Below are positions 1-36,508 of a DNA stretch of 64,000 bases, one piece after another; within the stretch, counting starts at the first letter, position 1; every line of letters begins with the position of its first letter. The position numbers and the translations under genes were made by a program. The DNA comes from Nitrospirota bacterium (GTDB lineage: Bacteria; Nitrospirota; JACRHJ01), in NCBI GenBank assembly GCA_021784575.1, contig JAJYHX010000002.1:248001-312000 (forward strand), read 5' to 3'. The notes beneath the pieces are model-generated. The model was not told where the DNA came from. It searched no databases and saw only the letters and a program-made list of their open reading frames with translations.

Positions 1-471
1 GTCTTCAAGGAACTTGACGAGCGACGGCCCCATCTCCGAAACCAGCGACGGCTCGTCTTCCGCAAGCGCGCCGATCGCCCAGATGGAACCCGCGAGTATC
101 GGCGTATTCCTGTTGGACGGGTCGGAAAGCTCCGGGTCGTCCGAGAGATGCAGGACTGGCCGGATTGCATCACGCGCCATGCCCGGATTGTTCCTGTATA
201 TCTCCGCGATGGCCTGCGCGGAACACCAGCCCACGGTGCTCGATTCCTCGTTCAGGAACCACAGAAGCCGCCTGACCGCCGGCGCCAGCTCCGTCCTTCC
301 CTCAGCCGCGACCAGCCCGAGCAGCGTAACGGCCCTCCACCTGACAAGCTCCTCCTCGGAATATAAAAGACCGAGCAGAATCCGCAGGTTTCCATGTCTT
401 TTTTTAACCAGGTCCATCGCTTCCTGATATTTCCGGCCGAGCAGGAGTTCCGACAGGGTTTCCCTGTCCAT
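1..471 (-). CDS. HEAT-repeat protein downstream of dsrEFH (C-terminus beyond window)
   Basis: An open frame runs leftward from an ATG at 471 to the window edge, giving at least 157 residues with no stop. The N-terminus reads MDRETLSELLLGRKYQEAM, followed by amphipathic helices of HEAT/PBS-lyase type (for example a segment around VRWRAVTLLGLVA near residue 45, and IWAIGALAEDEPS near the edge). It begins 5 bases after the dsrH-like gene stops, so it is the last visible gene of the operon. HEAT-repeat proteins of this kind are found with dissimilatory sulfur genes in anaerobes; a scaffolding or protein-binding role is inferred, no enzymatic residues are visible. Plus-strand frames over this stretch look like shadows. 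Confidence 0.75.
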   Translation of the reverse strand, partial: MDRETLSELLLGRKYQEAMDLVKKRHGNLRILLGLLYSEEELVRWRAVTLLGLVAAEGRTELAPAVRRLLWFLNEESSTVGWCSAQAIAEIYRNNPGMARDAIRPVLHLSDDPELSDPSNRNTPILAGSIWAIGALAEDEPSLVSEMGPSLVKFLED

Positions 472-476
472 GTTTG

Positions 477-773
477 TCAGAGCCAGGTCATCGGCTTGTG
501 CTGCTCGACAAGATCGACAAAATCGGCGTAGTCGATCACCTTCACGCCGGGGGTAAGATTGCCCGCCAGACCCCTTGCGGAAATGTCCGCGCTCAGCGCG
601 TAGACCGGGTGGTCTTTCAAAGCGCTCTTGACGAGGGTTTCCGCCCCGCCGCCGGCTGCGGCGCCGAGCACGGCGTCTTCAATCAGCAGTATCGGGGCAT
701 CCTTCTGCGCCACCCTGATGCAGCTCTCAAGGCTGCTTTTCATATACGGAGATTTGTTTACTATGTGAAGCAC
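477..773 (-). CDS. dsrH: DsrH/TusB-family sulfur relay protein
   Basis: A 98-residue protein of the DsrH/TusB family, the smallest subunit of the DsrEFH (TusBCD) sulfurtransferase hexamer that hands sulfane sulfur to DsrC/TusE in the cytoplasm. The family opening (MLHIVNKSPYMKSSLESC) and the acidic-hydrophobic ILLIEDAVLGA segment are clear. A cysteine near residue 18 falls where the family's active cysteine is expected. It is the third of three genes in order E-F-H, as in sulfur-oxidiser dsr operons. Length is normal. The only doubt is whether it acts in sulfur oxidation, sulfite reduction or tRNA thiolation; the adjacent dsrC and dsrMK favour dissimilatory sulfur metabolism. Confidence 0.85.
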   Translation of the reverse strand: MLHIVNKSPYMKSSLESCIRVAQKDAPILLIEDAVLGAAAGGGAETLVKSALKDHPVYALSADISARGLAGNLTPGVKVIDYADFVDLVEQHKPMTWL

Positions 774-791
774 CTTAAAGACCTCCTAATC

Positions 792-1148
792 TTAAAAAGG
801 CAGGAGCACGTCCTGCTCTTCCATTATTTTGCCTATGCCCGCCGAATCCATCACCTCGACCGGTATGGCGAAATCATCCGTCTTCAGGCCGCGCTTTTCC
901 ATGGATTCCTTGTCCACGTATATCTTCTCGCAGCCGTAGTCCTCCAGCACCGGCAGGGTCTGAACAAACCCCTTTATGCCGAGGGCCGAGGTATCCTGTC
1001 CTTTTTTGAGGGAGAAAACGGCGTCGTCCATGTAGACGGCGGCAAGCTCGTTTTCGTATGCGCCGAAGATGAGGACGACTTCCAGTCCTTCCCAGGCGTA
1101 TATCGTCCCGTGCGGGGCGTTCCTGTTTACGAACATTATCTTTGCCAC
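792..1148 (-). CDS. dsrF: DsrF/TusC-family sulfur relay protein
   Basis: A 118-residue DsrE/F-like fold protein placed between the dsrE-like and dsrH-like genes. It starts MAKIMFVNRNAPHGT and contains the family's alternating strand-helix pattern (VVLIFGAYENELAAVYMDD, then a C-terminal AIPVEVMDSAGIGKIME). DsrF is the middle subunit of the E2F2H2 hexamer and normally carries no catalytic cysteine; the only cysteine here, in YGCEKIYVD, is not at a known catalytic site. Spacing is 18 bases to dsrH and about 50 to dsrE, with purine-rich ribosome binding sites. Family assignment is firm; subunit naming relies partly on gene order. Confidence 0.82.
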   Translation of the reverse strand: MAKIMFVNRNAPHGTIYAWEGLEVVLIFGAYENELAAVYMDDAVFSLKKGQDTSALGIKGFVQTLPVLEDYGCEKIYVDKESMEKRGLKTDDFAIPVEVMDSAGIGKIMEEQDVLLPF

Positions 1149-1199: not shown

Positions 1200-1556
1200 T
1201 TAGTCTCCGAAGGTGACCACACGCTCCGCCTCGGTGCATATCTCGCTAAGCTGGCCCAGGCCGGATATCCTTGTGTTGTCAACTATAAGTTCCGGTTTCA
1301 TCCCGCGCCTCTTCGCCGCCGCCACGCAGACTACTATGTCCACGCCCTTGGCGCCGAGCTCCGACCACCGCCTTGCGATATGCCTGTCGTCCTGCGGCGG
1401 CTCCATGTGCTTGGCGACGTTCGTCACCGCATCGTCATACATGAACACGCCCTGGATTGTATGGCCCTTGGCCAGCGCCGCTTCGACAAACTTGTAGGCG
1501 GTATCGGAAGCCTCGTGGTTATACGGGCCTTCCTGTATCATTACGCCTATTTTCAT
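1200..1556 (-). CDS. dsrE: DsrE/TusD-family sulfurtransferase subunit
   Basis: The start at 1556 (MKIGVMIQEGPYNHE) is chosen over an upstream ATG because a strong AGGAGG lies just ahead of it and the extra N-terminal residues are not conserved-looking. The 118-residue product has the DsrE fold, and VDIVVCVAAAKRRGM carries the cysteine expected to receive persulfide sulfur before transfer to DsrC. With dsrF and dsrH it would form the heterohexameric sulfur carrier. It is separated from the upstream lipoprotein gene by about 155 bases, so it could have its own promoter, though none is obvious. Confidence is high for family, moderate for exact physiological direction. Confidence 0.85.
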   Translation of the reverse strand: MKIGVMIQEGPYNHEASDTAYKFVEAALAKGHTIQGVFMYDDAVTNVAKHMEPPQDDRHIARRWSELGAKGVDIVVCVAAAKRRGMKPELIVDNTRISGLGQLSEICTEAERVVTFGD

Positions 1557-1711: not shown

Positions 1712-3484
1712 TCAGCTTTCCGACGCGCCTATCTTGCCGGCCTTCTGAAGGGCCTTGTCGAAAATGTCGGCGGCCCTGGCCTTGTCGTGCTTCGCGCAGG
1801 CGGAGGCGATATTCGCCAGCAGGTCGGCGGAGACGGCATTGTCGTTCACGGAAGAGGCGGACTTAACCGCCATGTCCCAGACCATCGGGGAGCGGTAATC
1901 GCCCCTGGCCGCGAAATCCGCCGCAATCTCGGAGAGGTAGCCGACCTTCATGTTGTCGCCGCCTTCCAGTTTCGCCGCGTAATAGATGAACTGGTTCGGG
2001 TCAAGCCTGCAAAGCGCAACCGCAGTCTTCCACTGGAGCGCGCCGCTCTTCGCCGTGGCGGCAGCCGACGCGGCCCTTTTGTAAAGCTTTATCGCGGCGG
2101 CGGGGTCGGTCTGCTCCTTGAGCTTCGCGGCTCCGTAAAGCGCGCGCGCCTGCTCGTAGACCGCTTCGGCGCCGGCGAATCTCGGCACCTTTATCTTATC
2201 GAGGGCCTCCTTGAACGCCTTGTCCCCGTCCTTTGAGGCCGCAACCGCGAGCGACGCGTATATCGCGTCCTTTATTGCCGGATATTTCTCGTCCCCGGCC
2301 AGCTCCCCGGCCTTTTTCGGGTCGGAACTGACCAGCGAATCCGCCACAAGCTCAAGCGCCTTCGCCCGGTCGTACGGGTCGGATATGGACTGCGCAACAT
2401 CGATAACGCCGGACATGTCGGCGGCGTTGCCGGCGGCGGTGGCGGCCTTCATCATGGCCGCGAACTTCGCGTCGTTATGCTCTATCTTCGCGGCATAGGC
2501 GTTTGCATCGGCCGGGTTTGCGCCTGCAAGGGCCATGGCGACGTCGCTCATCGCGTAAGACCTGGCGTACGGCTGCGGTATAGAGGATGCCGTTTCTTCC
2601 GCCGTCGAAAACATCATCCGGGACTTTGCGGCGTCGGAATCCTTCAGCGCGAGGGCGGCATTTGCGAGCACCCTGGCGGAATATGCCATAAGGTTCCCCT
2701 TTTCCTTTGCGAGGACTTCAGCCTTTACTTCGGGAGGGGTGGAATCGGTAATGAGGTCGCTCGTGGGCTGCATGTTCAACACGGCATCCGCAGCATCGCC
2801 CGCGGCGGAAAACGCCGAATCCGCATCGCCGGAGCCGTCCGCCTTCGCCGTCCTGCCTATCTCCATGTATGCCCAGGCCTTTATCCTTGGGTCGGAGATT
2901 TTCGCGGCGGCATCCATGCCCGCCTTGAAATCAAGCGCGGCAAGCGCGGCGGAAACTCCGCGAAGGTCGAGGTCGCGGTATTTCGGGTCCGGTATGGACT
3001 CTGCGTCCTGCGCGGCCTGGTTAAGGATTCCAATCGCCTTTGCCTTGTCGAGCTTCGCTATGCCTTCGGCGATGGAGCGTATTACCCAGACGCGGGTGGA
3101 GGCGTTCGTAATTCTGTCTACAAGCGGGTCGATGGCCTCGTGGTCCTTGGGCCCCCAGCCGCTCGACATCCGGCGCAACCCCGCCGCGTATGTCTGGTTG
3201 GACTGCGCCCGGACCTGCGTCGCAAGCTTCAGGGCGGAATCGAGGGTATCGGACGCGCCGGGGACTCCCTGCATTGCCATCGCCATCCCGAGCTTCCCGA
3301 GCTCGAACGCCTTGAGGTTCATGTTGTCAAGGGTGTCCGCGGCCTTGCTCGCCTGAGAGACTGCGGCGGCCACCACCTTGGGGTCTGCCGTGCCGGTCTC
3401 CTTTTGCCCTTTATACTCGGAACAGGAGGAAAGGAAGGCCAGCAGCGAGACAGCAAATATTATTGCGAATATTCTTTTGAGCAT
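1712..3484 (-). CDS. Large helical-repeat lipoprotein of unknown function
   Basis: A 590-residue lipoprotein: hydrophobic signal peptide ending in the lipobox LSSC with the lipidated cysteine at residue 21. The rest is Ala/Asp/Lys-rich and almost entirely helical, built from irregular ~35-40 residue repeats of the type 'DPxxRAKALxxVAxxLxxxDxxKA', resembling TPR/HEAT-like solenoids. No cysteines for heme or Fe-S binding follow the lipobox. It lies directly upstream of dsrE and 11 bases after the membrane cytochrome gene, so it is embedded in the respiratory operon. A periplasm-facing scaffold for the cytochrome/Rieske complex is plausible but is inference. I do not recognise a named family. 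Confidence 0.7.
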   Translation of the reverse strand: MLKRIFAIIFAVSLLAFLSSCSEYKGQKETGTADPKVVAAAVSQASKAADTLDNMNLKAFELGKLGMAMAMQGVPGASDTLDSALKLATQVRAQSNQTYAAGLRRMSSGWGPKDHEAIDPLVDRITNASTRVWVIRSIAEGIAKLDKAKAIGILNQAAQDAESIPDPKYRDLDLRGVSAALAALDFKAGMDAAAKISDPRIKAWAYMEIGRTAKADGSGDADSAFSAAGDAADAVLNMQPTSDLITDSTPPEVKAEVLAKEKGNLMAYSARVLANAALALKDSDAAKSRMMFSTAEETASSIPQPYARSYAMSDVAMALAGANPADANAYAAKIEHNDAKFAAMMKAATAAGNAADMSGVIDVAQSISDPYDRAKALELVADSLVSSDPKKAGELAGDEKYPAIKDAIYASLAVAASKDGDKAFKEALDKIKVPRFAGAEAVYEQARALYGAAKLKEQTDPAAAIKLYKRAASAAATAKSGALQWKTAVALCRLDPNQFIYYAAKLEGGDNMKVGYLSEIAADFAARGDYRSPMVWDMAVKSASSVNDNAVSADLLANIASACAKHDKARAADIFDKALQKAGKIGASES

Positions 3485-3495
3485 CCTTAGACCTC

Positions 3496-4035
3496 TTATT
3501 CCTTTACGGTTTTCTTAAGCCCCAGGAAGAAAAGCAGGGAGACAATCATCACCACGAGCAGACCAAGCCCTATCACCTTTTCCAGCTTGTAGTCGTCGCG
3601 GAGCTTGTTTATCTTCTCGTAGATCTCTCCCATACCCTTTTTAATTTTCAGGTTCGGCCCGGCGAAGGAGCTTATGGAGTCCACGTCCTTCGTCCTGAGG
3701 TCGGCATACTTTATGTTGTATGTGACCAGGTCCTCCCGCATATACTCCGGGTATCTCATGGTCTGTTCTTCGAGGTCGGTCAGGAACTGGTTGTATTTCA
3801 GGAGCCTGCTTTCCGTGAAATACTGCCCTTCCTTAATCTGGAAAAGCCCCGGGCAGAGCGTGCTCTTCTGCTCCTGGTAAATGCTCCTGTCCCACTTCAT
3901 CAGGCTCCCGAAGGAGGCAATCTCGCCCGCGGTATGGCACTCGGCGCAGTAGTTGTCTTCCGCCGCCGCGTAAGCGGGGATAAAAAGCACGACGAGAGCC
4001 GCTATTAAAAGAACTCCTCTTACTCTCCCTGTCAC
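3496..4035 (-). CDS. Membrane-anchored monoheme cytochrome c
   Basis: A GTG start at 4035 is supported by AGGAG seven bases upstream. The 179-residue product has an N-terminal signal segment, one heme c site (CAECH, residues 30-34), a long charged helical region, and a single C-terminal membrane helix (about residues 153-174) ending in KKTVKE. The topology places the heme outside the cytoplasm, tethered at both ends if the signal is uncleaved. It follows the cytochrome b/subunit IV genes, the position of cytochrome f or c1 in bc-type complexes, although its sequence is unlike either. Likely the electron acceptor of the adjacent Rieske protein; that role is inferred from context. Confidence 0.75.
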   Translation of the reverse strand: MTGRVRGVLLIAALVVLFIPAYAAAEDNYCAECHTAGEIASFGSLMKWDRSIYQEQKSTLCPGLFQIKEGQYFTESRLLKYNQFLTDLEEQTMRYPEYMREDLVTYNIKYADLRTKDVDSISSFAGPNLKIKKGMGEIYEKINKLRDDYKLEKVIGLGLLVVMIVSLLFFLGLKKTVKE

Positions 4036-4053: not shown

Positions 4054-4485
4054 TTAAGATAAGTGTCCCGCGATTGTAAGGCCGACGAAAATCACGACAC
4101 CGGCGATGATGGTGGCCTTGCCGAGCGTTGACCGATTCTTCCAGCCCCTTGACTGCCCCCTGTCAAGGAATGGCAGCAGGAAAAGCCCCGTTATCGCGAG
4201 CACCTGCACCCCCATGCCTATCAGTTCCGCCACGTTTCCGAAGATGGTGGTCGGGAACATCTTCAGCGTCTGGTACGCCGCGAGGAAGTACCATTCCGGC
4301 TTCACGCCGAGCGGGGTGTTGGTGGTGTCCGCAGGCACCTCCGGCGGCAGGAAAAGACGCGGCACGAAAAAGGCTATCAGGAAGAATATCCCTATTACGA
4401 CGGAGACTATTATCCCCTTGTCTATTACATCGTTCGGCCAGAAAGGTTCGAGCTCGCCCTTCCAGTTGTCTTTATTATATTTCAT
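4054..4485 (-). CDS. Cytochrome b subunit IV (PetD-like C-terminal half of cytochrome b)
   Basis: A 143-residue membrane protein with three predicted helices and the diagnostic PEWYF motif (residues about 63-67: VKPEWYFLAAYQ), which forms part of the quinol-oxidation site in b6f/bc complexes. It corresponds to the C-terminal portion of cytochrome b, encoded separately from the heme-carrying N-terminal half (4687-5343), as in b6f-type organisation. A ~200-base spacer with no recognisable gene separates the two, unusually long for this pair and worth noting. Function: menaquinol or other quinol oxidation in the membrane. Confidence 0.88.
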   Translation of the reverse strand: MKYNKDNWKGELEPFWPNDVIDKGIIVSVVIGIFFLIAFFVPRLFLPPEVPADTTNTPLGVKPEWYFLAAYQTLKMFPTTIFGNVAELIGMGVQVLAITGLFLLPFLDRGQSRGWKNRSTLGKATIIAGVVIFVGLTIAGHLS

Positions 4486-4686: not shown

Positions 4687-5343
4687 CTATAACTGCTCCT
4701 GAATGCCGGACCTTCTTATCATCATGAAATGGAAGGCCATGAGAAGCGACATGATTACCGGAAGCGCCAGGTGCAGGGCGAAGAACCTGCCGAGCGTGGC
4801 GCCGGAGACCGCGTCCGCGCCGCGTATAACCTTCATCATTATCGGCCCGACGACGGGCACGACGGAGAACGAGGTCGTAAGGACCGTGACCGCCCAGTAG
4901 GACAGCTGCGTCCAGGGAAGCAGATAGCCGGAGATTCCCATCATCATCGTGAGCATAAGGAGGAAGAAGCCGGATATCCAGTGAAACTCCCTGGGGGCTT
5001 TGTACGCGCCGGTCATTATAACCTTAAGCATGTGTATCATCACGAGCAGTATCATTACGTTCGCGCCGATGGCGTGCAGGCGCCTGAAGAGCCAGCCGAA
5101 ATAGACGCCGTTGTCTATAAAGACCACGCTGGAAAAGGCCTCCTTGGGGGACGGCCTGTAATACAGCAGCAGGAAGGTGCCGGTGAGCACCTGGATTATG
5201 AAGAGTATGAGGGACATCCCCCCGAAGCAGCCGAAGAACTCGTACCACTTTTTTATCTTGGGCGCTTTCTTGGAGAACACCTCGTCGTCCAGCAGCTCGG
5301 AGATCCCCGTGCGGGAATCGAACCATTCAATCACCTTGCTCAT
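4687..5343 (-). CDS. Cytochrome b6-type diheme subunit
   Basis: The 218-residue product has four hydrophobic helices and two histidine pairs that bind the b hemes (in RRLHAIG and MIHML on one side, FFALHLALP and AFHFMM on the other), plus GYLLPW after the second helix. The start at 5343 is preferred to a GTG at 5352 because GGAGG sits eight bases before it and it directly follows the Rieske stop. It is the N-terminal half of cytochrome b in a split b6/subunit IV arrangement. With the Rieske protein (upstream) and PetD-like subunit (downstream) it forms a quinol-oxidising complex inside the dsr operon. Confidence 0.9.
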   Translation of the reverse strand: MSKVIEWFDSRTGISELLDDEVFSKKAPKIKKWYEFFGCFGGMSLILFIIQVLTGTFLLLYYRPSPKEAFSSVVFIDNGVYFGWLFRRLHAIGANVMILLVMIHMLKVIMTGAYKAPREFHWISGFFLLMLTMMMGISGYLLPWTQLSYWAVTVLTTSFSVVPVVGPIMMKVIRGADAVSGATLGRFFALHLALPVIMSLLMAFHFMMIRRSGIQEQL

Positions 5344-5344
5344 C

Positions 5345-5830
5345 CTATGCACCTCCGACTATCAATTTGGAGCCGACAATCTTATACGCGAGATGCTCGA
5401 GAGGCGCGGGAGGAGGGCCGCCCTTGTTTACCCCGTGCTTGTTGTACCAGCCGTCGTGGCACGGGCACCTGAAAATCTGCTTCGCCGGTTCCCATTTTAC
5501 AGTGCAGCCGAGGTGGGTGCACTTCAGGGATATAGCCTCGATCCCGCTCTTCCGGTTGAAGACCATGAACGAGTATCCGGCGTAAACGCCCCTGGCGGAC
5601 CCGCCTTTTGGTATGTCGTCGAGGTTCAGTATCGCAGGCTCCGGCTTGCCTCTCTGGACGGGCGTGAAGGACGCCAGGAGCGGAACGCCTACGAGGCCCG
5701 CGCCCAGCGCGCCTATGCATCCGGCGAAAGCGCCCAGGAAAGCTCGCCTTCCGGCCATGAATTTCCCGCCGTGGTGCTCTTCAGGCGCCGCCCCGGCGCC
5801 CGCTTTAGCGGTATCTTTGTTTTCTTCCAT
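5345..5830 (-). CDS. Rieske [2Fe-2S] protein of the dsr-linked bc complex
   Basis: A 161-residue Rieske protein. An N-terminal acidic cytosolic tail is followed by GRRAFLGAF (twin-arginine-like) and one membrane helix (about residues 31-55). Cluster ligands are in CTHLGC (C104, H106) and CPCHDGW (C122, H125); C109 and C124 provide the usual disulfide, and a GGPPPAPL loop follows. It accepts one electron from quinol at cytochrome b and passes it to a c-type cytochrome outside the membrane. Its stop is adjacent to the cytochrome b start, implying translational coupling. The family is certain; its partner cytochrome is inferred to be one of the two neighbouring heme proteins. Confidence 0.92.
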   Translation of the reverse strand: MEENKDTAKAGAGAAPEEHHGGKFMAGRRAFLGAFAGCIGALGAGLVGVPLLASFTPVQRGKPEPAILNLDDIPKGGSARGVYAGYSFMVFNRKSGIEAISLKCTHLGCTVKWEPAKQIFRCPCHDGWYNKHGVNKGGPPPAPLEHLAYKIVGSKLIVGGA

Positions 5831-5846: not shown

Positions 5847-6152
5847 TTATTCGTATCCTGACACCCTTTTGACGCCTACATAATCATGGCAGTTGTTGCA
5901 CGAGGTGTTCGCGTCGTGACACAGCATACACTCGTGCTTGTTGTAGTCGCCTCTTTCAAGAATGTCCATGTGGTGCGTTTTCCAGTAATCCACGGGCTGA
6001 TGGTATTCCGGGGAGAGGATTCCCGGAGGAAGCTTGAGCGCAAGCGGCCCCGTGCCCTTCAGCTCCGGCTTGGTGACGCGCTCGTTGGAGCATCCGGCGG
6101 CGATTAAGGCCAGGAGGGATATGAACAGCAGGACGAGTATCGGTTTCCTCAT
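5847..6152 (-). CDS. Small diheme cytochrome c lipoprotein
   Basis: A 101-residue lipoprotein: signal peptide with the lipobox AAGC (lipidated C21), then a proline-rich linker and two closely spaced heme c sites, CMLCH (75-79) and CNNCH (85-89), with HH at 60-61 as possible axial ligands. It abuts dsrK (6153) and the Rieske gene. In DsrMKJOP complexes the c-type cytochrome is DsrJ, a triheme protein; this shorter diheme protein occupies an equivalent genomic place but I see no clear DsrJ similarity. Likely periplasmic electron shuttle between the DsrMK part and the Rieske part, by inference. Confidence 0.8.
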   Translation of the reverse strand: MRKPILVLLFISLLALIAAGCSNERVTKPELKGTGPLALKLPPGILSPEYHQPVDYWKTHHMDILERGDYNKHECMLCHDANTSCNNCHDYVGVKRVSGYE

Positions 6153-7655
6153 TTATATCCCCTCCTTTCCGCCAAGGACTATCGCGCGGCTCACGAGCTG
6201 ATGGACACCTCCGACTTCCTCCATCTCATACCCGTAATACGGGAAGACCTTCGTGAACTGTGCCTTGCATATTGCGCATATGAGCGCGAAGAAGTTTGCT
6301 CCGTGGCTGTCCTTGACGGCTTTATACGCCTGCATTCTCGGCATGACGCCTTTTATGCGAAGGTCGATTATCTCGTCCGCGAGGAGTCCTCCCCCGGCGC
6401 CGCAGCAGAATGTCTTTTCGCGGATGGTGTCGGGGTGCATATCTACGAACTTGTTGCAAGTGGCCCTGATTATAGCCCTCGGTATTTCGAACTGGCCTCC
6501 GGGGCTGTTGCCCATCCTCGACGCGCGGGCGACGTTGCAGGAGTCGTGGAATGTTACTACGAAATCGTCGTTGGCCGTCTTGTCGAGCTTCAGCGCGCCC
6601 CTGTTTATGAGGTCGTACGTAAACTCGCAGATATGCTGCGGGGCGGGATATTTCGGGTCGAGTGAATCGAACGGCCCGATAAGGGTGTTCCAGAAGCTGT
6701 AGGCTACACGCCAGGCATGGCCGCATTCGCCGTGCACAAGTCTCTTGGGCTTCAGTTCGTTTATGGCCACCTTTATCCTGCTCGCGATCTTCTGCATGTG
6801 CTCGTAGTTTCCGTTGAACATGCCGAAGTTGCCGGCTTCGGAGGCGTATGACGAGAGCGTCCAGGAAATCCCGGCCTGGTGGAATACCTTCGCGTATCCT
6901 GCGAGCGACTCGACGTGCGGCGTGGCGAAGAAATCAGCCGAAGGTGTTATAAGCAGAACGTCCGCTCCCTTGACGTCCATCGGGAATTTTACCGGGACGC
7001 CGGTCTGCTCCTTGACATCCTCCTCCATGAAGTCGAGCGTGCTGCGGATGGCGGGCCCGGGCATTCCGAGGTTGTTGCCTATGGTAATAGCCTTGTTGAT
7101 TGTCTGGAGAGGATATTTCGCGCCGAGGCCGACGGTGTCCATCATCTCCCTGGCGGCCATGGTTATCTCCGCCGTGTCGATGCCGTACGGGCAGAAGAGC
7201 GAACAGCGCCTGCACTCCGTGCACTGGTAGAAGTAGGTATACCATTCCTCCAGGACTTCCTTCGTCAGGTCCTCGGCCTCCGCCAGCTTGCCCAATACCT
7301 TGCCTGCGGTGGTGAAGTAGCGGCGGTAGACCTTTCGCAGGAGTTCCGCCCTCGCCACCGGCATGTTGCGCGGATCCTTCGTGCTGAGGTAAAAATGGCA
7401 TTTGTCGGTACACGCGCCGCACTTGACGCAGATGTCCATGTAGACCTTGAGTGAGCGATACTTCTTGAGAAGCTCGGCGAACTTGGCGACCGCCTTCTCC
7501 TTCCAGTCCGGGACAAGCTCCGTGGGGAAGCCCAGGTCGGTCATGTCCTTCGCCGGCGCGTTATGGCTTTTTACAGCCGCCGCGGCGTCTTCTTTTAGGC
7601 CGGGTATCGTTATCTCACCGGTTAACTCGGGGACCTCAACCTTTACCTTTGCCAA
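6153..7655 (-). CDS. dsrK: DsrK/HdrD-like heterodisulfide-reductase-type Fe-S subunit
   Basis: A 500-residue cytoplasmic iron-sulfur protein. Two ferredoxin-type [4Fe-4S] sites appear (C76/C79/C82/C86 and C145/C148/C151/C155), followed by the C-terminal CCG module: HDSCNVAR, then FCCGAGGG, then CAICK, which together bind the noncubane catalytic cluster of HdrD/DsrK. A conserved HGECGHAW precedes it. DsrK, with membrane DsrM, reduces the trisulfide or disulfide of DsrC using electrons from quinol. It lies 13 bases after dsrM and its product partner dsrC is the first gene of the operon. Naming as DsrK rather than generic HdrD rests on the dsrC/dsrM/dsrEFH context. Confidence 0.9.
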   Translation of the reverse strand: MAKVKVEVPELTGEITIPGLKEDAAAAVKSHNAPAKDMTDLGFPTELVPDWKEKAVAKFAELLKKYRSLKVYMDICVKCGACTDKCHFYLSTKDPRNMPVARAELLRKVYRRYFTTAGKVLGKLAEAEDLTKEVLEEWYTYFYQCTECRRCSLFCPYGIDTAEITMAAREMMDTVGLGAKYPLQTINKAITIGNNLGMPGPAIRSTLDFMEEDVKEQTGVPVKFPMDVKGADVLLITPSADFFATPHVESLAGYAKVFHQAGISWTLSSYASEAGNFGMFNGNYEHMQKIASRIKVAINELKPKRLVHGECGHAWRVAYSFWNTLIGPFDSLDPKYPAPQHICEFTYDLINRGALKLDKTANDDFVVTFHDSCNVARASRMGNSPGGQFEIPRAIIRATCNKFVDMHPDTIREKTFCCGAGGGLLADEIIDLRIKGVMPRMQAYKAVKDSHGANFFALICAICKAQFTKVFPYYGYEMEEVGGVHQLVSRAIVLGGKEGI

Positions 7656-7668
7656 TTTAAAATCTCCT

Positions 7669-8394
7669 TTAAGTAAGGTTCGGCGACCAGGGGTTTACGT
7701 GCCTTCTCTCCCTCGGGTTATCCGCCTGATTCCTCGTCGGGCTGAAGAATATTCCCGGCGCATGAACCAGCTTGCTGTACGGGAAGTACGCCAGAAGTAT
7801 CATCACCAAGGTGAAGTGCACGAGAAAAACGGGGTCCGTCGGCACGGCGGAGAAATTAAAGGTGGCAAGCCCGTACACGAAGCCTTTTATATCCACCATG
7901 AACGGCCTCTCGTAGAACTTCATCATCAGGCCGGTACCGGCTATAAAGAAAATCAGGGTAAGGGCGAAGTAATCCGCCAGGGAGGATATGAACACGGTCC
8001 TGTCCACAGTGGTGCGCCTCATAAGGAGGTACAGCACCGCTATCGGGAGGACTATTCCGGCGACTATGCCGATGTATTGCAGCTTCATATCCCAGGCCGG
8101 CAGGGGATAAAGGAAATAACGCAGGTGCCGGAGCACAACAAAAAGAAAGGCCCAGTGAAAGACCACGCCGCCCAGCCATGTCCATTTGTTGCTCCTGTAG
8201 AGGCTCCTGAACAACAACACTTCGCTTAAGACGCGGACGGCTGCGCCGAAAGAAGTCGTGGGGGCTGGCGTAGTGGGTATCTTAAGGGGGGACGGGGTCT
8301 TGGCATATACCATTATCTTGCAAAGGATGCCGAAGACGAAGACAGCCGCCGCTCCATAGGCCATCAGGGAAAAGATTATCGTAAGAAATTGCAT
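7669..8394 (-). CDS. dsrM: DsrM-like cytochrome b (NarI-type) membrane subunit
   Basis: A 241-residue membrane protein with about six hydrophobic segments, of the NarI/DsrM family that binds two b hemes and exchanges electrons with menaquinol. Histidines in suitable helix positions are visible (VFHWAFLFVVLRHLRY and LVHFTLVMILLAYFPYSKLVH). The C-terminal HAPGIFFSPTRNQ is typical of NarI-like ends. It pairs with DsrK (next gene, 13-base gap). It is shorter than the longest DsrM proteins but normal for the NarI-like core. The partner subunits DsrJ/O/P of the full transmembrane complex are not found next to it. Confidence 0.87.
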   Translation of the reverse strand: MQFLTIIFSLMAYGAAAVFVFGILCKIMVYAKTPSPLKIPTTPAPTTSFGAAVRVLSEVLLFRSLYRSNKWTWLGGVVFHWAFLFVVLRHLRYFLYPLPAWDMKLQYIGIVAGIVLPIAVLYLLMRRTTVDRTVFISSLADYFALTLIFFIAGTGLMMKFYERPFMVDIKGFVYGLATFNFSAVPTDPVFLVHFTLVMILLAYFPYSKLVHAPGIFFSPTRNQADNPRERRHVNPWSPNLT

Positions 8395-8483: not shown

Positions 8484-8819
8484 CTATACGCAGCCGGTCG
8501 GCTTGGGAAGCCCGGCGATTTTGCAGGCCTGTTTCGCCGGCCCGGCGGGATAGAGCGAGTAGAGATACTTCGTGTTGCCCTTCTCCGGCCCGAGCTTCGC
8601 GCCAATGGCCTTGACCAGTATCTTGATCATCGGGGCTATCTTGTATTCGGCATAGTAATCCCTGAGGAAATTTACCACTTCCCAGTGCGCCTCGGTCATC
8701 TCGACTTCTTCCTGCTCCGCAAGGAAACCGGCGACGTCCTCGTTCCAGTCGTTCAGATTAATCAGATATCCGTCCTCGTCAACCTCGTAAGATTTGCCTT
8801 TGAATTCAATCGTCGGCAT
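8484..8819 (-). CDS. dsrC: DsrC sulfur carrier with both redox cysteines
   Basis: A 111-residue protein of the DsrC/TusE/RspA family. The flexible C-terminal arm ends ACKIAGLPKPTGCV: C99 and the penultimate C110 are both present, 11 residues apart, which is the signature of true DsrC (TusE keeps only the last cysteine). The residues PMIKILVKAIG and GNTKYLYSLYP match the conserved core. DsrC carries sulfite-derived sulfur as a trisulfide or persulfide between DsrAB and DsrMK. It is the first gene of the long operon, preceded by a strong candidate promoter at 9028-9057 and an AGGAGG ribosome binding site. dsrAB must lie elsewhere if present. Confidence 0.95.
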   Translation of the reverse strand: MPTIEFKGKSYEVDEDGYLINLNDWNEDVAGFLAEQEEVEMTEAHWEVVNFLRDYYAEYKIAPMIKILVKAIGAKLGPEKGNTKYLYSLYPAGPAKQACKIAGLPKPTGCV

Positions 8820-34986: not shown

Positions 34987-35484
34987 ATGAGAATGGAACC
35001 GGCGGAACTCGTGCAGGCATCAGGGTCAGACAAGACCCGGCGCGATTTCCTGAAAACCGGCATACTGGCCGTCTCCGGCATAATATCCGCCGCCGCAGTC
35101 TATCCCATTATCAGACTTGCATTGCACACGACGCCGCCCGCGCCGCCGGTATTCGTGGACGCGGTATTGCTGTCGGACATGCCTGAGGCGGGCGTCAGGA
35201 GGATAGACCTGTCCCTTGAAAAGGACGGAAGGCCGGACGCGCGCGTGTTTGTCAAGAGAACCCCGGACGGCAATATCATCGCTCTTTCCGCGGTATGCTC
35301 GCACTTGGGCTGTATCGTGAATTACGACAGGATTAAAGACCAGTTCGTCTGCCCGTGCCACGGCGGGAGATACGACGGGAACGGAAAGAACATCTCCGGC
35401 CCTCCGCCTGCGCCGCTTACAAGGCTCCCCGTGCGCATCGCCGGGGCCTACATACAGGTGGGGATAAGGAAGCCGCCCGTATGA
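34987..35484 (+). CDS. Rieske [2Fe-2S] protein of the second bc-type complex
   Basis: A 165-residue Rieske protein with a twin-arginine-like N-terminus (RRDFLKTG), one membrane helix, and cluster motifs CSHLGC and CPCHGGRYD followed by SGPPPAPLTRLPV. It differs clearly from the Rieske protein at 5345. Its stop overlaps the cytochrome b start (ATGA). Confidence 0.93.
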   Translation: MRMEPAELVQASGSDKTRRDFLKTGILAVSGIISAAAVYPIIRLALHTTPPAPPVFVDAVLLSDMPEAGVRRIDLSLEKDGRPDARVFVKRTPDGNIIALSAVCSHLGCIVNYDRIKDQFVCPCHGGRYDGNGKNISGPPPAPLTRLPVRIAGAYIQVGIRKPPV

Positions 35485-36128
35485 GCAATCCCTTTTCCAT
35501 AATCGACAGCCGCCTTAACTTGAGCCGCCACTACCGCCGGATATTCGAGCGCCCGCTCCCGGAAGGCGTCACATATTTCTACTGCCTGGGCGGCATGGCG
35601 CTCTTCTTTCTCATAGTCCTCACGTTCACCGGCGTCGTCCTGTCGTTTTACTATATCCCCTCCGCGTCGGAGGCATACCATTCCATCCGTTTCATAGACA
35701 GCAAACTACCCGGCGGCTGGCTGATGCGCGCGCTGCACGTCTGGGCGGCCTCGGGGATGGTCGCGGCGGTGATGGCGCACATGCTCCGCGTATACATCAC
35801 CGGCTCGTATAAGCCGCCCAGGGAGCTCAACTGGGTCGTGGGCGCGACACTGTTCGTCCTGACGATGGCGTTCGGGTTCTCAGGCTATCTACTGCCGTGG
35901 GACCAGAAGGCATACTGGGCGACGACCGTCGGCACCGCCATGCCGTCAACTATTCCTCTTGTCGGCCATTTTATAATGCAACTCCTCCGGGGCGGGGACG
36001 ACGTATCCGGCATAACGCTTCTCCGGTTCTACGTGATGCACGTATACATACTCCCGCTCGTCTCGATATTTCTGCTCTGGGCGCACTTCCATATGATTCG
36101 CAGGCAGGGGATAAGCGGGGGATTGTGA
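35481..36128 (+). CDS. Cytochrome b6-type subunit of the second bc-type complex
   Basis: A 215-residue diheme cytochrome b N-terminal half: RALHVWAASGMV and VMAHMLRVYITG give one histidine on each of two helices, FYVMHVYILP and LWAHFHMIRRQG the others; GYLLPWDQKAYWATTV is the Qo-side signature. The start at 35481 is fixed by the ATGA overlap; an upstream in-frame extension overlaps the Rieske gene and is rejected. Confidence 0.93.
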   Translation: MSNPFSIIDSRLNLSRHYRRIFERPLPEGVTYFYCLGGMALFFLIVLTFTGVVLSFYYIPSASEAYHSIRFIDSKLPGGWLMRALHVWAASGMVAAVMAHMLRVYITGSYKPPRELNWVVGATLFVLTMAFGFSGYLLPWDQKAYWATTVGTAMPSTIPLVGHFIMQLLRGGDDVSGITLLRFYVMHVYILPLVSIFLLWAHFHMIRRQGISGGL

Positions 36129-36508
36129 TGGACAATAGGCTTAAGAAATTCTACCCGGATTACCTCTTTGAGATTCTTCTAGTCTGCCTCTTCGCGCTGG
36201 AGGGCGCGCTGTTGCTCTCGTATGTCTTCCCGCCGGTGACGGGCAGTCCGGTGGACTTCTCGCGCAACTTCCTTCCGCGCCCGGAGTGGTATTTCCTTGC
36301 GCTCTACCAGATGTTCAAATACTTCCCCGGGAACCTCGCGTTCATAGGCGTCGCGGTGATTCCGGCGGTGATTCTGTTCCTTGTCTTCGCGCTTCCGTTC
36401 CTCGAAAAGACGCATTCCAGAAGGCTTCGGGACAGGAAATTTTCCGCCGTCGCCGCGGCTATCCTTCTCGTATCCGCCGCCGTCCTGACCGTCCTGTCGT
36501 GTTTCTGA
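36128..36508 (+). CDS. Cytochrome b subunit IV-like protein of the second bc-type complex
   Basis: A 126-residue protein with three membrane helices and PRPEWYFLALYQMFKYFPG, the subunit IV Qo motif. It overlaps the cytochrome b stop as TGATG. No cytochrome c gene follows, so this three-gene complex must donate to a c-type cytochrome encoded elsewhere, possibly one of those in this window. Confidence 0.92.
   Translation: MDNRLKKFYPDYLFEILLVCLFALEGALLLSYVFPPVTGSPVDFSRNFLPRPEWYFLALYQMFKYFPGNLAFIGVAVIPAVILFLVFALPFLEKTHSRRLRDRKFSAVAAAILLVSAAVLTVLSCF

Follow-up and report, generated by a model that had tools for sequence, protein, structure and literature searches.

Why does a gene for a large helical-repeat lipoprotein lie inside an operon for a Dsr membrane complex, between cytochrome genes and dsrEFH? 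The gene occupies positions 1712..3484 of the minus strand in a stretch of 64,000 nucleotides from a Nitrospirota bacterium (assembly GCA_021784575.1, contig JAJYHX010000002.1, positions 248,001 to 312,000), which we refer to as the window. It encodes a protein of 590 amino acids, called here the solenoid. The open reading frame begins at ATG and has the GC content of a coding region (0.61/0.48/0.78 by codon position). It is also under purifying selection; a comparison of two species of the window's genus gave a dN of 0.065 and a dS of 0.375, i.e. a ratio of 0.17 vs 0.02 for DsrK within the genus. The N-terminus carries a lipobox (LSSC) that ends at Cys21. A CXXCH motif is absent from the protein, and no Pfam or NCBIfam family matched at any curated cut-off. 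The original prediction, which was made from the sequence alone and described an uncharacterised lipoprotein with solenoid-like repeats, without cofactor motifs and of no recognised family, is borne out by these data and by the repeat analysis described below.

The genes of the operon follow each other on the minus strand in the order dsrC (8484..8819; DsrC/TusE family, NCBIfam TIGR03342), dsrM (7669..8394), dsrK (6153..7655), a DsrJ-like diheme c lipoprotein with two CXXCH motifs (5847..6152), a Rieske 2Fe-2S protein (5345..5830; Pfam PF00355, with NCBIfam TIGR01416 below cut-off), the N-terminal part of cytochrome b (4687..5352; Pfam PF00033), its C-terminal part or subunit IV (4054..4485; Pfam PF00032), a monoheme c-type cytochrome (3496..4035) and the solenoid. 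Downstream of the latter are dsrE (1200..1556; Pfam DsrE, TIGR03012), dsrF (792..1148; Pfam DsrE/DsrF-like), dsrH (477..773; Pfam DsrH, TIGR03011) and a HEAT-like protein (1..471; Pfam HEAT_EZ), the C-terminal part of which lies beyond the window. The genes dsrA and dsrB come after the HEAT protein and were read in a locus that extends past the window (L011). Only 11 bases separate the monoheme c gene from the solenoid gene. The solenoid gene is hence located where the original prediction placed it, with cytochrome genes on one side and dsrEFH on the other; the start of dsrE had to be moved from 1640 to about 1556, in agreement with a length of 118 aa in its relatives.

This locus resembles the DsrMKJOP systems of sulfate reducers and sulfur oxidisers in that it combines DsrK, a DsrM-type protein and a periplasmic multiheme cytochrome c, with dsrC adjacent and dsrAB near. 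DsrK scored 582 bits against the NCBIfam model NF045796 and passes the curated cut-off of 400. DsrM is a clear relative in a short form, which falls below the cut-off of its model (NF038037; 188 bits vs 300). The diheme protein fails the model for the triheme DsrJ (14 bits vs 100, E 0.048). Unlike in DsrMKJOP, neither dsrO nor dsrP was found between dsrC and dsrH when open reading frames, Pfam and NCBIfam were inspected; the Rieske, split cytochrome b, monoheme c and solenoid genes are present instead, and the Rieske/cytochrome b genes take the place in which one would expect dsrO and dsrP. One gene of the NrfD family occurs elsewhere in the genome (contig C6). As in cytochrome bc1 and b6f, the genes for the Rieske protein, the N-terminal part of cytochrome b and subunit IV are in one operon. 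The genome of the window contains a second, separate Rieske, cytochrome b and subunit IV cluster (34987-36508, plus strand), and for this reason the set in the dsr operon looks like a specialised copy. The cytochrome b of the second cluster shares 46% identity with that of the dsr operon, and a third cytochrome b is encoded on contig C5.

According to the accessible part of PMC10504309, DsrC-trisulfide receives electrons from DsrMK(JOP), of which some organisms possess DsrMK alone. In cable bacteria dsrTMKJ is located apart from dsrOP-like genes (PMC13047784, as far as available), which means that rearranged Dsr complexes are already known. Nitrospirae from an acid pit lake carry dsr genes (PMC9326234, accessible part). 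The portions available of these three articles and of a review on alpha-solenoids (PMC11514114) mention neither a solenoid nor a set of Rieske/cytochrome b as part of a Dsr complex. A search of the literature, mostly of open-access articles, found no paper that describes DsrMK together with a periplasmic solenoid, or in one operon with Rieske/cytochrome b genes.

The protein contains internal repeats well above chance. Its best ungapped self-alignment scored 76, while 60 shuffled versions gave a mean of 40.3 (SD 4.4) and a maximum of 51. Five units of about 33 aa can be delimited (166-198, 304-336, 337-369, 369-401 and 401-433); a profile built from these same five units scores them highly by construction. 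AlphaFold2 predicts an all-helical protein with 30 helices, including the signal helix, and no strands (pLDDT 72.7). The model thus consists of the repeated helix pairs of an alpha-solenoid, as had been anticipated for a structure prediction. The input comprised four sequences at 86-88% identity, and the pTM of 0.59 makes the overall shape unreliable. A Foldseek search with the model resulted in 15 matches at E ≤0.001, all of them to generic solenoids, and the best fold match with VIA was a designed toroid (Z 15.6). The fold class is therefore supported by the model, the exact shape is not.

The solenoid shares its all-alpha two-helix repeats with HEAT/ARM/TPR proteins such as VPS35, the PP2A scaffold, importins and LGN (Foldseek, VIA). 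It differs from them in that no sequence match rises above a Pfam cut-off and that the query-normalised TM-scores are ≤0.32 among the matches listed. The Pfam repeat models (HEAT/ARM/TPR) found no match in the window protein or in its relatives from genomes G005 and G119; TPR_12 matched the relative from genome G092 below the cut-off (16.1 bits vs 30.1, E 0.013). Membership in a known TPR or HEAT family was rejected, since nothing exceeds the Pfam or NCBIfam cut-offs. The only protein of solved structure with a sequence match at E ≤0.01 is TON_1535 from Thermococcus onnurineus (PDB 3zpj), a helical-repeat protein. It was hit by a four-row profile (A5) with E 1.9e-4 over about 58 residues plus two weaker repeats, and by a five-row profile of close relatives (A1) with E 0.11. 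TON_1535 also appears in the fold list, with a Z of 10.9 that is in the range common for helical repeats. The apparent likeness is one of repeat type only, and we know of no cytochrome link for TON_1535.

The A1 profile, built from five rows of the window's own family (f1), matched 10 of 395 genomes of the phylum at E 1e-4: six from f1, three from a second Nitrospirota family (f19; genomes G119, G092 and G234) and G365. The match in G365 is limited to about 110 positions of a 330-aa frame, next to which a 977-aa protein is encoded. It was dropped as a homolog; no CXXCH protein was found in the 12 kb available from this genome. This leaves nine true homologs, in all six f1 genomes and in 3 of the 12 f19 genomes, the f19 count of modules being judged by the monoheme c. 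The wider A5 profile, which like the other later profiles includes the f1 and f19 rows that it recovers, found the same three f19 proteins among 149 genomes of the order of G119, plus weak repeat matches in G061 and G419 over 80-180 positions inside frames of 1077 and 1364 aa. A scan of 84,980 species, with a method that reaches close relatives only, gave four solenoid loci, all titled Nitrospirae. Neither the solenoid nor the monoheme c was found in a plasmid collection. Widespread homologs away from dsr or bc genes, which would have spoken against the original prediction, were not seen among the 395 genomes. The solenoid represents a new, rare family, and the gene cluster around it is a new arrangement for a complex of known type. 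All f1 and f19 genomes with a solenoid contain dsrA, which was detected in 11 of the 12 genomes tested; the exception, G008, belongs to neither family.

Within f1 the dsr synteny around the solenoid is preserved: the second genus (G005) has the whole order, and the five genomes of the window's genus agree with it up to their contig ends. The original prediction proposed an assembly scaffold specific to this variant complex and suggested, as a check, to see whether homologs always lie next to the same Rieske/DsrMK genes. They do so in f1 as far as the contigs extend; the f19 loci do not support the specificity, which was rejected. Beside the three f19 solenoids no dsrK, Rieske, cytochrome b or dsrEFH genes were recognised; what these loci keep is a DsrM-like protein, the diheme c and the monoheme c. 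In G119 the module comprises a DsrM-like protein (259 aa), diheme c (102 aa), monoheme c (177 aa) and solenoid (567 aa), in this order. The same four parts are condensed into two genes in G092 and G234. One encodes a 274-aa DsrM-like protein with a diheme domain at its end, the other a fusion of monoheme c and solenoid of 771 or 774 aa. The fused protein is composed of a signal peptide, the monoheme domain, a membrane helix, a second lipoprotein-type signal and the solenoid. Because the membrane helix of the cytochrome is followed by a lipoprotein-type signal, the topology of the separate proteins is kept.

A separate DsrK is encoded elsewhere in each of the three f19 genomes. In the two loci that were read, from G119 and G092, it sits in an ordinary dsrC-M-K-J operon. 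DsrM and DsrJ of the G119 operon pass their NCBIfam cut-offs (549 bits vs 300 and 175 vs 100), and an NrfD-family gene lies behind DsrJ on the same contig. Judging from these sequences, the f19 module is a relative of the DsrM/J half that lacks DsrK and is present in addition to an ordinary Dsr operon. Its DsrM-like proteins (L021 8837-9661, L022 1365-2189 and L020 13090-13869) are very divergent and lack a histidine that every other DsrM row has at alignment column 317, a loss that may mean fewer hemes b. With this divergence and the missing histidine, the f19 module may do something else. The rows of the f19 module form long branches in a DsrM tree, which was not used for descent.

Which gene, then, does the solenoid accompany? 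The monoheme c gene directly precedes it in every locus read with a flank (the window, L003, L004, L012, L014 and L020). A monoheme c profile matched 8 of the 395 genomes, and all eight are among the ten with a solenoid match. The other two are G003, in which the contig ends inside the solenoid, and G365 with its repeats only; in G002 just the last 33 residues of the monoheme c are present, at a contig end. The diheme c in turn was matched in 27 of the 395 genomes. Nineteen of these 27 loci are outside f1 and f19, and in all 19 the diheme gene lies directly behind DsrK. These DsrC-DsrM-DsrK-diheme or -tetraheme loci of other Nitrospirota share DsrK and the diheme c family with the window; they differ from it in that none of them shows a Rieske, cytochrome b, monoheme c or solenoid gene in the flank read after the diheme c, which spans up to 1500 bases (less than 400 in L039 and L041, due to contig ends). 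For nine of the 19, a longer stretch of 10-19 kb gave the same picture; in this wider reading the window proteins were the only queries for the monoheme c and the solenoid. These counts show that the solenoid tracks the monoheme c and neither the bc genes nor DsrK.

The monoheme c has 179 aa, a signal peptide, one CXXCH motif (C30-H34) and a C-terminal transmembrane helix (154-172), and it matches no Pfam or NCBIfam family. Residues invariant in seven sequences include the CXXCH motif, Thr35, Cys61-Pro62 and Thr74-Glu75-Ser76. No second invariant His and no invariant Met other than the start occur in these seven sequences; among residues of the usual type (His, Met, Cys), Cys61 is therefore the only invariant candidate for a distal heme ligand. 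An AlphaFold model from three close sequences is too poor (pLDDT 49.6, pTM 0.31) to place Cys61. The diheme c has, besides its two CXXCH motifs, two further His at 51 and 61 that are invariant in four rows, so its hemes are possibly bis-His. We hypothesize that the two hemes of the diheme c and the one of the monoheme c would correspond to the three of DsrJ. For DsrJ, a His/Cys heme is described in PMC9562282, where Allochromatium vinosum is discussed.

A comparison of the two f1 genera identified the solenoid as the least conserved of 13 operon proteins, with 40.5% identity vs 45.7% for the HEAT protein, 53.9% for the monoheme c, 77.6% for DsrK, 80.7% for cytochrome b and 88.3% for DsrC. Low conservation together with purifying selection is what would be expected of a non-catalytic subunit. 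The residue after the lipobox Cys (+2) is Ser in the window and Glu in G005. The G119 protein has no clear lipobox at the end of its signal, indicating that lipid anchoring is not universal.

The adjacency to the monoheme c and the fusion with it suggest that the solenoid is a structural part of an electron-transfer machine. On balance we favor the view that it is a periplasmic, lipid-anchored structural subunit dedicated to a module of DsrM, diheme c, monoheme c and solenoid. The genes, the predicted helical fold, the adjacency, the fusion, the co-occurrence and the selection all enter into this view, and we infer from them how binding, stoichiometry and electron path might look. The DsrM-type membrane protein would be the base of the module. 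The solenoid would bind the monoheme c directly and wrap around it or dock it beside the diheme c, which would fix the periplasmic electron path. The predicted assembly scaffold finds reasonable support in so far as the solenoid appears to be a dedicated partner of the DsrJ-side cytochromes; the tie to Rieske and DsrMK does not hold.

Fusion and adjacency would also fit a periplasmic assembly chaperone that holds apo-cytochromes for heme attachment, or inserts them, and is absent from the finished complex. TPR-like solenoids with such a job exist; CcmI and NrfG are assembly factors that handle apo-cytochromes. The fast sequence change and rarity of the solenoid fit a helper of this kind, as does the location of its gene directly behind that of a c-type cytochrome. 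However, the fusion in two f19 species favors a stoichiometric and permanent partner, although a chaperone could also be fused, the 19 other diheme loci manage without a solenoid, and the single TPR match, that in G092, is below the Pfam cut-off. Taken together, we consider the chaperone unlikely. If the solenoid gene were a passenger or a regulator that is in the operon by chance and does nothing for the complex, the low identity between genera would fit. Yet two families whose loci differ in their other neighbors have both retained the solenoid next to the monoheme c, and the two are even found fused; this co-occurrence and the dN/dS of 0.17 led us to reject the passenger, which is highly improbable.

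Another function for a lipid-anchored solenoid is that of a docking platform or tether for a soluble electron acceptor, a component of the outer membrane or cell wall, or another respiratory complex. The 590 residues are many for a protein whose partner is a cytochrome of 179 aa, and one of the Foldseek matches is a periplasmic flagellar scaffold from Campylobacter (E 1.9e-4), which does not rank above other solenoids. In Proteobacteria Ser at +2 of a lipoprotein allows transport to the outer membrane, a rule that may not hold in Nitrospirota. The window protein has this Ser, but the Glu of G005 and the unclear lipobox of G119 do not follow the pattern. Furthermore, no candidate for a tethered partner was found, and in G092 and G234 the fusion anchors the solenoid in the inner membrane, provided that its second signal remains uncleaved. 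A tether thus seems quite improbable.

Under the favored interpretation as a structural subunit, the f1 module would connect to two further parts, DsrK at its cytoplasmic face and the Rieske/cytochrome b unit that stands in the expected gene position of DsrO/DsrP. The solenoid would keep the monoheme c at a place from which it can reach the diheme c as well as the Rieske head. Since the bc genes are in the expected DsrOP position, quinone chemistry may pass through Rieske/cytochrome b. A bolder version, which we regard as speculative and rather doubtful, is a Dsr-bc supercomplex in which Rieske/cytochrome b replaces DsrOP beside DsrKM, DsrJ is split into diheme and monoheme c, and the solenoid is a clamp that repositions the split-off heme. 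The part of the His/Cys heme in DsrJ would then fall to the monoheme c with its Cys61.

These loci bear on the part that the periplasmic hemes of Dsr membrane complexes play in sulfur respiration. They constitute a natural rearrangement with a two-heme J-like protein, a separate anchored heme protein with an invariant Cys, a dedicated solenoid and quinone chemistry that apparently comes from Rieske/cytochrome b. The DsrK-free version in f19 allows one to ask about the role of the periplasmic half alone. Solenoid and monoheme c, two families without assignment, can now be tested jointly.

The loci also revealed some variation in neighboring genes. A doubled version of the diheme c, with four hemes in one protein, follows DsrK in G147 and in family f17 (L057 9651-10181, L058 9083-9724, L059 9302-9826 and L060 9900-10418). 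Relatives of the HEAT protein adjoin dsrC in other Nitrospirota without a solenoid (L054 4783-5430 and L058 12541-13596), so that the HEAT protein is a separate dsr-linked gene. Downstream of dsrAB, L011 (4501-9367, i.e. window -7499 to -2633) encodes an 81-aa protein, a GltD-like oxidoreductase of 559 aa and a pair of genes. The 81-aa protein, which had no NCBIfam match at 1e-10, resembles DsrD in our judgment, and the pair is presumably NfnAB-like. Together with the adjacent dsrEFH, this combines genes that usually go with reductive sulfur metabolism and genes that usually go with its oxidative form. In G002 (clean1511 MAG) dsrA is split into two frames (L002 3806-4711), which reflects either an assembly error or decay.
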